From the NCBI GenBank assembly GCA_902578815.1, contig CACHEI010000006.1:1-64000 (forward strand): 64,000 bases of DNA, written 5' to 3'. The DNA comes from an uncultured SAR116 cluster alpha proteobacterium (GTDB taxonomy: Bacteria; Pseudomonadota; Alphaproteobacteria; Puniceispirillales; Puniceispirillaceae). Shown in pieces: positions 25,788 to 56,684 of the stretch. The notes beneath the pieces were generated by a model that did not search any database, was not told the DNA's origin, and saw only the letters and a list, made by a program, of their open reading frames with translations. The position numbers and the translations under genes are program-made. Numbering within the stretch: position 1 is the stretch's first letter; each line of letters starts with the position of its first letter.

Positions 25788-26363
25788 CCTCTTGATCGTT
25801 AAGACTGTTGCACCAAAACACCCCTCATGGCCTAACGATTCCAAAAATTGCAGGACAAGACTCAACCGCTGCAAAAGTTACTCTGAGATAAACTATAATT
25901 GGTGCCGTTATTCTACCCGCGATAGTGAGGAATTAACGCTCAACAATTCTCAAGTATCGCTCGCGATAAAAATCTGACTCTAATCGGTTAATCATTACTG
26001 GCCTTTTCTACCGGTATCAGGAAATTGTACCTGACATTTATGAACCTTTTCGCTTAAAAATTTTCACTTTTGAATATAAACAGGCTGTTGAAAACACTGC
26101 TAAACATGCCGCGCTGAAGCGTCAAAACAGCTATTGACAAACCATAACAGAAAGCACAAAATTTACCGTCTGTTCCTTACCTTTTGTTATAAATTTATTG
26201 TTCGTAGCAAAATTCGAAAGGATAATTAATTTATGAAGCCATAACGCCAAAAGCTGCAGCTTGGTCAACTTCGTTGGCATAAGTTAATACCAATTTGAAT
26301 AGCCAGTGAGCAGCGGCGATCAGAGACAGAGTCAAGTTTATTCTAAATAGGGGGAGAATAATC
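25788..26363. other. Intergenic stretch before the sarcosine oxidase region
   Basis: About 575 bases, A+T-rich, with only short random frames. It must contain the promoter for the rightward genes from 26364. No clear operator or stem-loop was seen. Confidence 0.5.
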
Positions 26364-27515
26364 ATGATCAAATCACTCGCGAAGACCTGGGAGCCTGCTG
26401 GAATAAACGGGTATGTAAACGATGATCTGCTAAAATTAGGAGCACTAAATCTTATTGAAGGCTGCCTTGGAGATGTGGTTGGCAAAGAGATTCTAATCGT
26501 AGCAGAAGACCCGAAGCTTGGCTGGTACGATGCCGCTGCTCCGGCAAGTGTTGCAAACTTACTTAGAGAGATGGGCGCAATAGTCAAAATATTGATGGTT
26601 GGCGCGCCAGAAAATGACGCTCTTCCTGTTGTGCAAGAAGCTATTGACAGGGTAGACGAAGCGCTATTCTTCGCGCGCATAGGAGATCAAGGCCGTTTCA
26701 AATCACAATATAGCTTTACGTCTCAGAGTGGTCGATTTTGCGCGGTTATGTGCTATACGAGAAATGCTTCCATGCTCTCAAGCGGATATGGTCTGCTGTC
26801 TCATCGTGCAATGGTTGCACTAAAAGACGCTATTGATAAAATTACGCTTGGCGCGCATCAAATCCAAATCACCTGCCCGCTTGGCACAAATGTTAAGGGA
26901 TCACCAGGGGAAAGCTTGACCGAGGGTAATGAGGTGGTTGTTAGTCGCTATCCAATGGGTGTGCCAAAGCCTGTGCTTGCGAATGGATTCACTGGTGTGG
27001 TCAAGCTCTCACGTTATTTGACCTCTGCAGGCTCAAAAGTATACGAGCCAGCCTATCTGGAGCTTCCTAAAATTGTGACTGTGCAGATTGACGGCACCAG
27101 CATGGTCGACATTAATGGTCCAGCCGATCTTGTTGCGGCCGTCAAAGGGCACCACCAGCAGGTTGCTGCACAATTCGGATTGGAAGCTTTCAACATTGAC
27201 TCATGGCATGCGGGAATTCACCCATTGATGGGGTATGATATGCCTGCATCTGCAGATCCTGAACGGTGGTCACAGACAGTGTTCTCTAATCCAAGGGTCC
27301 TTCATTTTCATACCTGCGGGTTGGGACCACCAGGCGAAATCTGCTGGATGATCATTGATCCAACCATTACCATAGATGATGTCGCCCTATGGGAAAACGG
27401 ACGATTGCATCCCGAACGCTTTGCCCAGACTATGGTAGTTCTGCGAGACTACCCCGAACTTGCCATTGCCTTTGCCGCACCGATTGGCGAGATTGGCCTC
27501 GGGGGTTCGTTCTAG
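26364..27515 (+). CDS. Uncharacterised protein, possibly M29 aminopeptidase/dioxygenase-like
   Basis: A 383-residue soluble protein with a GGGGGAG ribosome-binding site 8 bases upstream. Its N-terminal half has alternating beta strands and helices (GKEILIVAED, VKILMVGAP). The C-terminal half has NIDSWHAGIHPLMGYD, LHFHTCGLGPPGEICW and PIGEIGLGG, a spread of histidines and glutamates that recalls the metal-binding layout of the M29 aminopeptidase/2,5-dihydroxypyridine dioxygenase superfamily. That link is tentative. It lies 54 bases upstream of soxB on the same strand, so a role in methylated-amine or related catabolism is inferred. Confidence 0.6.
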   Translation: MIKSLAKTWEPAGINGYVNDDLLKLGALNLIEGCLGDVVGKEILIVAEDPKLGWYDAAAPASVANLLREMGAIVKILMVGAPENDALPVVQEAIDRVDEALFFARIGDQGRFKSQYSFTSQSGRFCAVMCYTRNASMLSSGYGLLSHRAMVALKDAIDKITLGAHQIQITCPLGTNVKGSPGESLTEGNEVVVSRYPMGVPKPVLANGFTGVVKLSRYLTSAGSKVYEPAYLELPKIVTVQIDGTSMVDINGPADLVAAVKGHHQQVAAQFGLEAFNIDSWHAGIHPLMGYDMPASADPERWSQTVFSNPRVLHFHTCGLGPPGEICWMIIDPTITIDDVALWENGRLHPERFAQTMVVLRDYPELAIAFAAPIGEIGLGGSF

Positions 27516-48881: not shown

Positions 48882-50549
48882 TTAGCCAAGGATCCTTGGT
48901 AGTTTGAGGCCCTGCTCCCGGGCGCACGCCAGTGCCGCGTCATAGCCTGCGTCGGCATGGCGCATAACACCAGTCGCCGGATCATTCCACAATACGTTAG
49001 CAATTCGTCTATCTGCATCCTCAGTACCATCGCAGCATATCACCATCCCTGAATGCTGAGAAAAGCCCATACCAACACCGCCGCCATGATGCAGCGACAC
49101 CCAAGTTGCACCACTAGCCGTGTTCAATAAAGCATTAAGCAATGGCCAATCAGAAACTGCATCTGAGCCATCTTTCATAGCCTCAGTCTCACGGTTAGGC
49201 GAAGCGACAGAACCACTGTCAAGATGATCACGGCCAATCACCACTGGAGCTGATAATTCACCCGTGCGAACCATCTCATTGAATGCCAGTCCTAGCCGAT
49301 GGCGGACGCCGAGTCCAACCCAGCAAATTCGGGCCGGTAGACCCTGAAAAGCAATCCTTTCCCGAGCCAAATCCAGCCAGTTGTGAAGATGCGCATCATC
49401 GACGAGTCTCTTAACCTTAGCATCTGTCCTGTAAATGTCTTCGGGATCTCCTGAGAGAGCGCACCAGCGAAACGGTCCAATACCGCGACAAAACAAGGGG
49501 CGGATATAGGCCGGCACAAAACCGGGAAAGCTAAAAGCTGTTGTCAATCCTTCCTCGCTTGCCACCTGACGAATGTTATTTCCATAATCCAGCGTCGGCA
49601 CTCCATTGTTCCAGAAATCGACCATCGCGGCGACGTGAGTTTTCATAGAGGCTCGCGCGGCGCTCTCCACTTCCTTTGGGTGGCTTTCTTGTTTGGCCCG
49701 CCATTCACCAACCGACCAACCCTGCGGCAGATAACCATGAAGTGGATCATGTGCAGAAGTCTGGTCCGTAACCATATCCGGCTTCACTCCACGACGCACC
49801 AATTCCGGAAACACATCGGCAGCATTGCCTATCAACGCCACAGATTTTGCTGCACCAGTTTTAGTCCAAGCATCAATCATTGCCAGCGCCTCATCCAGCG
49901 AATGTGTCTTTTCATCGACATAGCGCGTGCGCAGACGGAAATCAGCGCGTGTTTCATCGCATTCGACAGCCAGACAGCTAGCACCGGCCATGACCGCTGC
50001 GAGTGGCTGAGCCCCACCCATACCTCCAAGGCCAGCTGTCAGTATCCAACGGCCAGTAAGATTTCCCCCATAATGCTGTCGTCCAGCCTCTACAAAAGTT
50101 TCATAAGTACCCTGAACAATCCCTTGTGTGCCAATATAAATCCATGACCCCGCTGTCATCTGGCCATACATGGCAAGACCACGCTTGTCTAATTCGTTGA
50201 AATGGTCCCAATTTGCCCAATGCGGCACAAGATTGGAATTAGCTATCAACACCCGCGGAGCATCGGTATGGGTGCGAAATACACCAACCGGTTTTCCCGA
50301 TTGCACAAGAAGCGTTTCATCAGACTCAAGATCACGCAGAGTGGCAACGATCATGTCAAAATCTTCCCATGTGCGCGCTGCCCTGCCGATACCACCATAA
50401 ACCACCAATGCATGGGGATTCTCCGCAACATCAGGATGCAGATTATTCATCAACATCCGCATTGGCGCCTCAGTCAGCCAACTTTTCGCAGTAATTTCGT
50501 TGCCAGTAGGCGAAAAAACATCGCGGATATTATGTCGGGAGTCCTGCAT
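48882..50549 (-). CDS. hutU: Urocanate hydratase
   Basis: A 555-residue urocanase. The NAD+-binding region is [20 protein letters not shown] with [18 protein letters not shown], and the C-terminal catalytic block includes [19 protein letters not shown] and the active-site cysteine in VICCDGTE. It converts urocanate to imidazolonepropionate. An AGGAG site precedes the ATG; it follows hutH by 26 bases, so hutI-hutH-hutU form a leftward operon. Confidence 0.96.
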
Positions 50550-50575
50550 CTATCTTATCTCCTGGTGTGATGTTA

Positions 50576-52129
50576 TTAGAGCGTCCTTCCATTTGGGCTT
50601 TGTCCCAAAATGTAGTCCGGCAAATCAAGGCCCATCAAAAGCCGACCATCCCGGATCAATTTGGCTGCCGCGCACAAATCTGGTGCTATGTAACGATCCT
50701 CATCCAGCGGTGCGATCACCTCTCTTGCGATGTTAATCACTGCCTGTAACATTGGGCTAGTAGATAGTGGCGCTCGAAACCTAATACCCTGCGCGGCGCA
50801 GATTAGCTCTACTCCCAAAATGACATTTAGATTGTTGTTCATTCGTACCAGTCTGCGGGCCGCGTGAGCAGCCATGCTGACATGATCTTCTTGATTGGCT
50901 GAGGTGGGCGTACTGTCGGTCGAGCAAGGATTGGCCAGATGCTTGTTCTCACTCATCAGCGCAGCGGTTGTCACCTCGGCAATCATCAACCCAGAATTGA
51001 GGCCTGGGTCGGGAGTGAGGAAGGGTGGTAAATCAAAGCTGAGTGCCGGATCAACCATTAACGCCACTCGCCGCTGGGCAATTGCTCCTATCTCGGCAAG
51101 GGCGAGCGCGATCTGGTCAGCGGCAAAGGCAACCGGCTCAGCGTGAAAATTGCCACCTGACACGATGCGGCCAGTAGCAGTCAGAACTAGCGGATTATCA
51201 GTCACGGCATTCGCCTCAATGGTCAGGGTACGGCCAGCAAAATGAAGCAGATCCATCGCCGCACCAGTCACCTGAGGCTGGCAGCGAATACAATAAGGGT
51301 CCTGCACACGGGAATCGTCATCACGGTGACTTTCACGAATTTCAGAGCCCTGCATTATGCTGCGCTGGGCGCGGGCAACGGCAATCTGCCCGGGATGACC
51401 ACGAAGAATATGGATTTCATCAACAAGCGGTGCGGTCGATCCCATAATGGCATCGGTGGACAACGCCGCAGTGACAACGCAGCCACTGGCATTGCGCCAC
51501 GCCCCGAAAAGCGCTGACAAAGCACAGGCAGTCGAAAATTGCGTGCCATTAATTAGGGCCAGCCCCTCCTTAGGACCGAGTGTCACTGGTGCCAGGCCAG
51601 CGGCGGCAAGTGCTGCACCTCCCGACATCACCTGTCCCTTATGGCTGGCCTCGCCTTCGCCAATCATCACCGCAGCCATATGCGCCAATGGAGCCAAATC
51701 ACCAGACGCGCCGACTGACCCCTGAACAGGCACAACCGGCAAAACATCCCTATTGATCATCGCCGTAATCAGCGTCACCGTTTTCCAGGAAACCCCCGAC
51801 GCGCCCCGGCCCAGTGACAGCAGTTTTAGCACCATCATTAACCGTGTTGTTGGCATGTCCAGAGCCTCACCAACACCACAACAATGTGAGAGTATGAGAT
51901 TACGCTGCAGGCTAGCGGTGGCGTCAGCAGCAATCGTAACATTTGCCAGCTTGCCAAAACCGGTATTCACACCATAGACAGCCTTATCACCATTTGCGGC
52001 CGCCCTCACGTGTGTGGCCGCTGCCTCAACCGGATCCCGCATATCGCCGTGCAGTGCTACGTCATATTCACCACGCCAGATGGACTCCAACTGGGGAAGG
52101 CTGGTCTCACCTGGAACCAAAATTATCAT
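50576..52129 (-). CDS. hutH: Histidine ammonia-lyase
   Basis: A 517-residue aromatic-amino-acid lyase. The autocatalytic MIO prosthetic group forms from A141-S142-G143 in [16 protein letters not shown], and Y52 in [13 protein letters not shown] is the expected catalytic tyrosine. It releases ammonia from histidine to give urocanate. The frame extends to 52255, but the ATG at 52129 overlaps the hutI stop by ATGA and gives the family length. Confidence 0.96.
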
Positions 52130-53358
52130 TGCGCAACCCCACCAAAAAATCGGCGTTTCAAAGGATTGAAACCAATACGGTAAGACAATTCCGCTGGGTG
52201 ACGGACATCCCACAATACCATATCGGCGCGCATACCAACGCGAAGCCTGCCACAATCAAACAGGCCCAATGCCTTTGCCGCATGTCTGGTCACACCTGCC
52301 AGCGCTTCTGCTGGTGTCATCCGGAACAATGTGCAGCCCATATTCATTGCTAGCAGCAGCGAAGTCAACGGTGATGAACCGGGATTGGCGTCGCTGGCCA
52401 GTGCCATCATTACATTGGCTCCACGAAACAGGTCAATCGGCGGCATCTTTGTCTCACGCAGCGTGTAGAATGCTCCGGGCAACAGCACCGCAACACTGCC
52501 AGCCGCCGACAACGCTCGGGCATCCGCGGCATCGGCATATTCGACGTGATCTACCGAGAGCGCACCATATTTCGCTGCCAGCTGACAGCCACCAGATTGG
52601 GACAATTGTTCAGCATGCAGCTTAACTGGCAGGCCAAGGTCCCTAGCGACAGCAAAAACACGCTCGATCTGTGCTGCGGTGAAGGCTATTGTCTCACAAA
52701 ACCCATCAACTGCGTCAACAAGCCCCTGCTCATGCGCCTGGTACAGAGCAGGAATACAGATATTGTCAATATAGTCATCGGGATCAGCCGCATATTCCGC
52801 AGGCAGCGCATGCGCGCCAAGAAAGCTAGTTATAATACGCACCGGCCGTTTATCAGAGAGCGCTCGGGCAGCGCGCAGCATCCGTAATTCGGTCTCAATA
52901 TCCAAACCATACCCAGATTTCACCTCAATCATACTCACACCCTCTGCCAGCAAGGCGTCGACACGGGGCAGAGCAGCAGTCACCAATTCAGCCTCAGACA
53001 TCACACGAGTGGCGGTGACTGTTGAGACAATGCCGCCACCAGCACGCGCTACCTCCTCATAACTAGCCCCATTCAGTCGCAGCTCAAACTCAGCGGCACG
53101 ATGGCTCCCATGAACAATATGCGTGTGGCAGTCGATTAATGCCGGTGTTAGCAGCCTGCCTCCAGCGTCAAAAACTGCAGCCCTACCAATGTTGGTGTGA
53201 CCAGCTGACAACTTTTCCATCGGACCAAGCGCAGCAATCTGGTTGCTTTTAATCAAAAGATAGCCTCTATCGATCAGGCCGTAAGGATCATCACCTCCCA
53301 AACTGTCCGGTCGGTCATCCAGCGTCGCGATTACCGCATTTGTTATCAGCGTCTGCAT
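52126..53358 (-). CDS. hutI: Imidazolonepropionase
   Basis: A 410-residue amidohydrolase with metal-binding [10 protein letters not shown], the [10 protein letters not shown] segment and [11 protein letters not shown], followed by SDANPGSSP. It opens the imidazolone ring to formiminoglutamate. It is the first gene of the leftward hut operon, and its start faces hutF across about 70 bases, which must hold both promoters. Confidence 0.95.
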
Positions 53359-53428
53359 AGGGTACGGTCACCCATCAGAAGGTTTCTTTCGTTATAGTTA
53401 CACAATACACAAACAACGGAAATTGGGA

Positions 53429-54799
53429 ATGTTCATCATCAGGGCTGAAACTGCGCTTCTACCAGATGGCTGGCAGAGTAATGTGTTTGTGCATATTAAC
53501 AGCCTCGGGAAGATTGATAAGGTCACGACAAGCACTGAGAGCGGCAAGCCCGACACTTATGTCAGACTTCTGTTGCCAGCGCCTGTCAACGCCCACAGCC
53601 ACGCCTTTCAACGGGCCATGGCCGGCCTGACAGAGTATCGAGGCAGCAACAGCGGTGACAGTTTTTGGACCTGGCGCGAGTTAATGTTCCGCTTTCTGGA
53701 CCAATTGGCGCCAGATGATATTGAGGCCATTGCCGCTTTTGTCCAGATGGAGATGCTCGAGGCCGGATATGCCACCAATGTTGAGTTTCACTATCTGCAT
53801 CATGGGCCGGATGGCAGACCATATAATAACCTTGGCGAAATGGCCAACCGGGTCATGGCAGCAGCCGAACGTACTGGCATCGGGTTGACCCTGCTGCCAG
53901 TACATTATCAATATGGTGGATGTGATTTCCAACCTCTAGCAAAGGGTCAGTGCCGCTTTCATAATGATTTGGACGGGTTTGCGGATTTGTGTGACGCCAT
54001 CCAGCCAGGACTTGCCACACTGCCGGCTGATACCAACTTTGGCGTTGCGCCACACAGCCTGCGCGCTGTTGCACCAGATAGTTTTGCCGCAACCCGTGCA
54101 CTAGCCAAAGGTGGCCCATATCATGTGCATCTGGCCGAACAGCTGGCGGAGGTTGAGGAGGTGAAACAGCATCTTGGCGCGCGCCCAGTTGAATGGGTTC
54201 TGAACAATATGGAGATTGATGATAGCTGCTGTTTCATTCACTGTACGCAAATGCAGCCGCATGAGATCCAGGGATTGGCAAAAAGTGGCGCTATTGCCGG
54301 CCTTTGTCCAATTACCGAGGCAAGCCTCGGCGATGGAATTTTTGAGGGTGTTAGATGGCTTGACTCCGGAGGAGCGATTGCCATCGGTTCAGATTCAAAT
54401 ATCCGTATTTCTCTGTCGGAGGAAATTCGGACACTCGAATATTCGCAGCGCCTTCGTGATCGTTCGCGCGCCGCGTTGGCCAGCGATGACAAATCAACCG
54501 GACGCAGGATTTTTGATGAAATAGTCGATGGGGGCGCTAATGCCGCCGGCCGAAAAACCGGCAAGATTTCGGTTGGCTTTTGGGCTGATTTTTTGGCACT
54601 GGATAGCAATGCCACTAATCTAGCCAGCTATGAGGATGACACAATTCTTGACATTTTTGTTTTCGCTGGTGATGATCTGTTAGTAAACGACGTATGGTCT
54701 GCAGGCAGGCATCTAGTAAAAAATGGAAGACACATTAACCATGATTCATTTACACACACTTACCTAAAAACATTGTGTTCTATTTCAAAAAATATTTGA
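53429..54799 (+). CDS. hutF: Formimidoylglutamate deiminase
   Basis: A 456-residue amidohydrolase with LPAPVNAHSHAFQRAMAGL, a hydrophilic GDSFWTWRELMFRFLDQ segment, VHLAEQLAEVEEV and SDSNIRIS. It deiminates formiminoglutamate to N-formylglutamate, showing that the organism uses the HutF/HutG route; hutG is not in the window. The open frame begins with a TTG at 53423, but the ATG at 53429 is preferred. It is divergent from hutI. Confidence 0.93.
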   Translation: MFIIRAETALLPDGWQSNVFVHINSLGKIDKVTTSTESGKPDTYVRLLLPAPVNAHSHAFQRAMAGLTEYRGSNSGDSFWTWRELMFRFLDQLAPDDIEAIAAFVQMEMLEAGYATNVEFHYLHHGPDGRPYNNLGEMANRVMAAAERTGIGLTLLPVHYQYGGCDFQPLAKGQCRFHNDLDGFADLCDAIQPGLATLPADTNFGVAPHSLRAVAPDSFAATRALAKGGPYHVHLAEQLAEVEEVKQHLGARPVEWVLNNMEIDDSCCFIHCTQMQPHEIQGLAKSGAIAGLCPITEASLGDGIFEGVRWLDSGGAIAIGSDSNIRISLSEEIRTLEYSQRLRDRSRAALASDDKSTGRRIFDEIVDGGANAAGRKTGKISVGFWADFLALDSNATNLASYEDDTILDIFVFAGDDLLVNDVWSAGRHLVKNGRHINHDSFTHTYLKTLCSISKNI

Positions 54800-56151: not shown

Positions 56152-56382
56152 AAAATCACGGCGTGTTAAAGTGTCTGTATGGAATATTTCCCAATTAATA
56201 GACAATCCGTGGTTTTATGCTACGGCAGTTGTTAGCAGAAAATAGCAGTAACAATCTATCAGTTGACTTTACTAATTAGATAGTAGAGCGCTTCATCTTA
56301 TAATTGAAGTTACAAATAGATCGACCAGTGCACCGTTTATAGTCGGCGGTATTTTCATCTAGAAGGTCGGATGAATAAAACA
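56152..56382. other. Spacer before the structured element
   Basis: About 230 bases after the EamA gene. It contains a short hairpin CTTCA...TGAAG near 56291-56310. A TTAAAGTGTC at 56166 is the reverse complement of GACACTTTAA near 56546, so the two could pair across the structured element. No gene. Confidence 0.4.
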
Positions 56383-56431
56383 AAAAACCTTTCAGGCTCC
56401 CCCGTACTTGAAGTACACCTGAAAGGTTTTT
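56383..56431. terminator. 14-bp hairpin ending in a T run
   Basis: Left arm 56383-56396 (AAAAACCTTTCAGG) and right arm 56418-56431 are perfectly complementary, with a 21-base loop holding CTCCCCC and a small inner hairpin GTACT-TGA-AGTAC. The A- and T-runs at the ends make it a plausible bidirectional rho-independent terminator, or the 5' hairpin of a small RNA. It is 230 bases after the EamA stop. Confidence 0.7.
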
Positions 56432-56621
56432 CTACGGTGCATGACGCCGTGCGTTCTTAACATGCGACAAAACGCCGTAGTGTTATTGGCTGTCGGACAG
56501 CAACTAAACTAGGGGGAGAGTAGCTCAGTCTTTCTACGGCTGTCCGACACTTTAACGGTGGACCTGACAAAAGCGATAAGCAATGCGGCAAAATAGCTGA
56601 CCCTCAAACGGGGTGGATTGC
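56383..56621 (+). ncRNA. Candidate structured RNA or leader with switching helices
   Basis: Several long complementarities overlap. TGTCGGACAGC (56491-56501) pairs with GCTGTCCGACA (56539-56549). GCCGTAG (56474-56480) can pair either with CTACGG (56432-56437) upstream or with CTACGGC (56534-56540) downstream, the latter overlapping the previous helix. CTCCCCC in the loop of the first hairpin is complementary to GGGGGAG (56512-56518) in the loop of the second. A last hairpin is enclosed by GCAAT/ATTGC (56580-56621). No known RNA family was recognised. It ends about 60 bases before the AT-hook gene, so it may be its leader or a separate RNA. Confidence 0.4.
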
Positions 56622-56684
56622 GTTGTTCTTTTGTTTAGATTAAGAACCAGAATCAATTTAGAGTAGTGAGTCAAGGAGAATTAA

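Follow-up and report, generated by a model that had tools for sequence, protein, structure and literature searches.

A putative lineage-specific small RNA with an anti-Shine-Dalgarno-like loop in one genus of SAR116 alphaproteobacteria

The window, a 64,000-nucleotide stretch of DNA from an uncultured SAR116 cluster alphaproteobacterium, contains a structured element (positions 56377-56551) which is most likely the gene of an undescribed, lineage-specific regulatory RNA, ordinary in kind and new as a family. On balance, we favor a free-standing small RNA (sRNA) encoded on the minus strand, which would present an anti-Shine-Dalgarno loop and whose transcription, action in trans and targets we infer. 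The features of this putative gene and its neighbor are as follows.

56377-56548, minus strand: proposed sRNA gene of about 170 nt, putative, supported by a covariance model match and homologues
Near 56548, minus strand: sRNA 5' end, placed from the promoter geometry
T-run near 56377, minus strand: sRNA 3' end, placed from the terminator
56492-56548, minus strand: hairpin 1, with an outer stem (56539-56548/56492-56501) and an inner stem (56521-56530/56502-56511)
56512-56520, minus strand: loop of hairpin 1, CUCUCCCCC, anti-Shine-Dalgarno-like
56462-56476, minus strand: conserved stretch between the hairpins, GGCGUUUUGUCGCAU
56439-56465, minus strand: possible short helix, GCAU (56462-56465) with AUGC (56439-56442), 95% of cells paired
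56388-56426, minus strand: terminator hairpin 3, with an inner GUAC/GUAC stem, followed by UUUUUUGUUUU
56397-56403, minus strand: bulge GGGGGAG in hairpin 3, with complementarity to the hairpin 1 loop
56685-56918, plus strand: gene of a small AT-hook-like membrane protein, a divergent neighbor judged to lie outside the system

The sequences on which a first-pass annotation had based its description of a highly structured intergenic region are all present. In plus-strand letters, AAAAACCTTTCAGG (56383-56396) pairs with CCTGAAAGGTTTTT (56418-56431) over 14 bp and TGTCGGACAGC (56491-56501) with GCTGTCCGACA (56539-56549) over 11 bp, CTACGG occurs twice (56432-56437 and 56534-56539), GCCGTAG lies at 56474-56480, CTCCCCC at 56397-56403 and GGGGGAG at 56512-56518. 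The predicted fold surpassed 200 of 200 dinucleotide shuffles on either strand, with z-scores of -4.1 (plus) and -6.2 (minus), so that these sequence features are more than chance. Reading frames are broken within the element and are not kept from copy to copy. When the window was searched against Rfam 15, no match was obtained at gathering thresholds and, at E-values up to 10, only DLEU2_3 and mir-21 appeared, both at chance level, while three homologous loci gave none at E-values up to 1. The earlier statement that no known RNA family is recognizable thus holds for the window and these loci. As for the broader proposal of a regulatory RNA or riboswitch-like leader, it stands as far as a structured RNA outside the Rfam families is concerned and falls for a leader of the AT-hook gene, as discussed below.

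The element recurs. Hereafter, G000 designates the window's own genome, win the window copy and ownB a second copy in G000; the five sequences compared are win, ownB and the copies of genomes G001, G002 and G004. A covariance model match covers 56381-56551 on the minus strand with 190 bits, and of the five genomes representing one SAR116 genus, four contain the element (G000, G001, G002 and G004). Three homologous contigs belong to the SAR116-cluster single-cell genomes AG-916-C06, AG-901-J20 and AG-893-M18. The G004 copy occupies the same locus as in the window, and identity between the two is about 85-100% over positions ~56376-56640, against about 60-70% in the flanks. The G001 and G002 copies reside at other loci, while ownB lies on the window's contig beyond the window end (G000:C6:75361-75532); these three share a common neighborhood with another small membrane-protein gene, distinct from the AT-hook gene. 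In addition, G001 carries at the AT-hook locus (locus A) a decayed relic devoid of the terminator hairpin. The element was found neither in G003, although this genome is the most complete of the five, nor in the remainder of the 136 genomes of the order, nor, under stricter filters, among 385 genomes sampled from the class. In these searches, it thus occurred in a single genus of SAR116. One other match, L007, was discarded as a 32-bp chance match situated in an apparent coding region. At L034 838-855 in G001, about 650 bp away from the relic, lies AATGCGGCAAAACGAC, which is similar to the conserved AATGCGGCAAAATAGC found near positions 56582-56597 of the window. It was also observed that the motif CRTTTTGYCGCAT is scattered through the genomes of the genus, exceeding a reversed-pattern control in most of them, with no clear linkage.

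Comparison of the five copies supports the proposed helices. When the 44 proposed pairs are scored in each of the five sequences, 95.4% of the cells pair, compared with 33-43% when the partners are slid by 1-3 columns. Both sides have changed in four pairs, distributed over the outer and inner parts of helix 1 and the terminator stem. Collecting homologues for covarying pairs, as the first-pass annotation had advised, therefore backed two hairpins by two-sided substitutions, a covariation which is modest as it stems from five sequences. The short GCAU/AUGC helix is weak, since three of its four pairs are invariant. It had also been suggested that GCCGTAG switches between the two CTACGG copies. 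While the sequences exist, they are not conserved as a switch: one pairing is not conserved and the other is conserved in part. The helix joining columns 75-80 and 118-123 of alignment A2 pairs in 63% of cells with no two-sided change and was rejected; the alternative helix of columns 14-18 and 75-79 pairs in 80% of cells and could at most form a weak pseudoknot, which hairpin 1 would allow.

The RNA is most likely read from the minus strand, opposite to what had been assumed, as judged from the pattern of substitutions, the folding energy and the flanking signals. Read on this strand, 22 cells of the proposed helices are G-U and four are A-C (the latter being G-U on the plus strand), and the alifold energy is -47.1 kcal/mol compared with -39.7 kcal/mol on the plus strand. 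The shuffle z-scores given above (-6.2 versus -4.1) favor the minus strand as well. In four of the five copies, the T-rich tail that follows the hairpin is on the minus side. That of G004 is poor (4/8, versus 5/8 on the plus side), and the plus strand is the better fit for one pair of the relic and for one G001 pair in the short middle helix. Upstream, the following features were identified.

56578-56583, minus strand: -35-like box TTGCTT, replaced by TTGACC or TTGACG at equal spacing in copies of the other promoter type
56555-56560, minus strand: -10-like box CACCGT, all five copies conforming to NANNNT, separated by 17 nt from the -35 box and by 6 nt from the first base of helix 1
56552-56630, minus strand: conserved upstream region of the sRNA, of which 56576-56625 is identical in G004

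All five copies exhibit the arrangement TTG(C/A)NN-17-NANNNT-6-GTCGG upstream on the minus strand, the last spacing being counted to the first base of helix 1. The upstream regions fall into two types without mutual resemblance, which makes it unlikely that the shared promoter geometry merely reflects common descent between the types. A general promoter scan did not flag the site, and the -10 boxes are weak. At the level of sequence, the minus strand thus displays a putative promoter of its own and a predicted Rho-independent terminator, as is characteristic of trans-acting Hfq-dependent sRNAs.

The earlier observation that CTCCCCC in one loop is complementary to GGGGGAG in the other extends to all five copies, with 7 bp in four of them and 6 bp in one. 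The predicted duplex amounts to 7 bp and -14 kcal/mol in win, G001 and G002, to 7 bp including one G-U and -11.0 kcal/mol in ownB, and to 6 bp and -11.4 kcal/mol in G004; with a loop of 9 nt and a bulge of 7 nt drawn at random, the chance of attaining 6 bp is about 2% and that of 7 bp 0.3%. Across the five copies, the loop reads CUCUCCCCC, CCCUCCCCC or UUCUCCUCC. In ownB, the pairing is kept through a C to U change, which is compatible with pairing on the minus strand only. Covariation support for this interaction consists of that single wobble change, as four of the six counted pairs are invariant.

In the proposed mechanism, the 5' hairpin would present the loop CUCUCCCCC, the middle region would carry GGCGUUUUGUCGCAU and the 3' end would form a Rho-independent terminator bearing the GGGGGAG bulge. 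The C-rich loop would base-pair with Shine-Dalgarno sequences of target mRNAs and block their translation, probably with the participation of Hfq, while pairing with the terminator bulge would either keep the loop masked until displaced by a competing target or partner or lock a compact fold. By analogy with known sRNAs, the loop would block ribosome-binding sites and the bulge would mask the loop within one molecule. A doubtful possibility is a self-masking sRNA in which kissing with its own terminator bulge holds the C-rich loop, the terminator acting as a built-in sponge, and opening by a target or a protein releases activity.

Potential sites for such pairing are available. Genomes with the RNA contain 14-17 GGGGGAG-spacer-ATG sites each, and 26 are present in G003, which is larger and more complete and in which the RNA was not found; the sites are thus no rarer there. 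The gene hfq is encoded in three of the five genomes of the genus (G002, G003 and G004) and was not found in G000 and G001, both genomes being only 65-70% complete. In G002 and G003 (L104 and L106), the hfq ribosome-binding site is itself GGGGGAG, in the form AAATAGGGGGAG in G003, and is complementary to the sRNA loop; the match of the hfq leader is reduced in G004, which possesses the RNA, and is poorer than in G003. Within the window, the start of gene 26364 (26348-26366) reads AAATAGGGGGAGAATAATCATG, of which 10 nt can pair with the sRNA loop; its 383-aa product has no Pfam match. Among the GGGGGAG-spacer-ATG sites, the hfq leaders and this gene, no conserved target was found and none stands out.

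The result of the target search fits a structured minus-strand RNA devoid of anti-Shine-Dalgarno action, in which the loop-bulge pseudoknot would serve folding only and the function would be protein binding or sponging of another RNA. The mutual complementarity of loop and bulge in every copy is equally in line with this explanation, as is GGCGUUUUGUCGCAU, which ranks among the longest conserved unpaired stretches and lies outside the hairpin 1 loop. Nevertheless, we deem it unlikely: neither a protein partner nor a sponge target is known, and alphaproteobacterial sRNAs are established to bind their targets through C-rich loops of this type (PMC3712013; PMC12559287).

Far less probable is a 5' leader read from the plus strand that would control the AT-hook gene like a riboswitch, as put forward in the first-pass annotation, or like an attenuator. 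The element does lie 5' of this gene in G000 and G004, conservation extends toward the gene up to ~56640 and, as noted, the plus-strand fold also beats shuffles. However, the G001, G002 and ownB copies are not beside the AT-hook gene, those of G001 and G002 being on other contigs although both genomes encode it, and no such element precedes the AT-hook genes of other genera. Besides, conservation is lacking for the second of the alternative helices, and the copies do not share the constant place and strand upstream of a regulated gene that a cis-acting leader would have. The leader is thus rejected on account of the copies at other loci and the opposite strand, which fits better. The AT-hook-like protein itself has 77 aa, matches the AT-hook weakly (RGRPKK) and contains a hydrophobic segment in its C-terminal part; of 101 related genomes searched, 16 encode relatives, at times two per genome, with the C-terminal half conserved.

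The least probable explanation is a DNA-level element with the hairpins as palindromes, for example the terminus of a small mobile element or a site bound by a protein: the occurrence of the element once or twice per genome, at differing loci, and a decayed copy do evoke duplication and loss, but copies are few, no match was found among viral contigs and phage and plasmid records, leading us to discard a mobile or viral element, and G-U-tolerant, strand-asymmetric substitutions are unexpected for DNA palindromes.

SAR116 bacteria are abundant, mostly uncultured marine alphaproteobacteria whose regulatory RNAs are little known, and a literature search retrieved no work on SAR116 sRNAs. If confirmed, the trans-acting sRNA favored here would be genus-specific and, with its duplicated and decaying copies, would offer a view of the birth and loss of sRNA genes; it would possibly be an sRNA bearing its own sponge.

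Among known systems, this sRNA is reminiscent of two alphaproteobacterial families. In Rhizobiales, AbcR1 and AbcR2 (alpha-r15) expose the anti-Shine-Dalgarno motif UCCUCCC in a 5' hairpin loop (PMC3712013). They share with the element several hairpins, an anti-Shine-Dalgarno 5' loop, a 3' Rho-independent terminator and paralogues within a genome (PMC3712013). In contrast, there is no sequence or covariance-model match between them, AbcR has an A/U-rich stretch before its terminator, and the loop CUCUCCCCC is complementary to the element's own terminator bulge. UCCUCCC was not found in the element's 5' loop, whose C-rich sequence is related but not identical.

The alpha-R8 family (SisA-D in Caulobacter) is sponged by the G/A-rich loop of CrfA (PMC12559287). 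It resembles the element by a C-rich anti-Shine-Dalgarno core, a terminator, paralogues with unrelated promoters and a G-rich partner sequence (PMC12559287). Its 10-nt single-stranded core, UUUCCUCCCU, is absent from the loops of the five copies, and the window and three homologous loci have no Rfam match. As to genomic context, alpha-R8 usually sits beside an N-formylglutamate amidohydrolase gene. Judging from open reading frames, about 1.6 kb, including an EamA-type gene, separates the window copy from the end of a hut-like cluster. This cluster of histidine-utilization-like reading frames, named from translations, spans 48882-54799, upstream of the element. Finally, while the single-stranded core of alpha-R8 lies below a weak hairpin and a separate RNA, CrfA, supplies the masking G/A-rich loop, the C-rich loop of the element tops a strong hairpin and its G-rich partner belongs to the same molecule.
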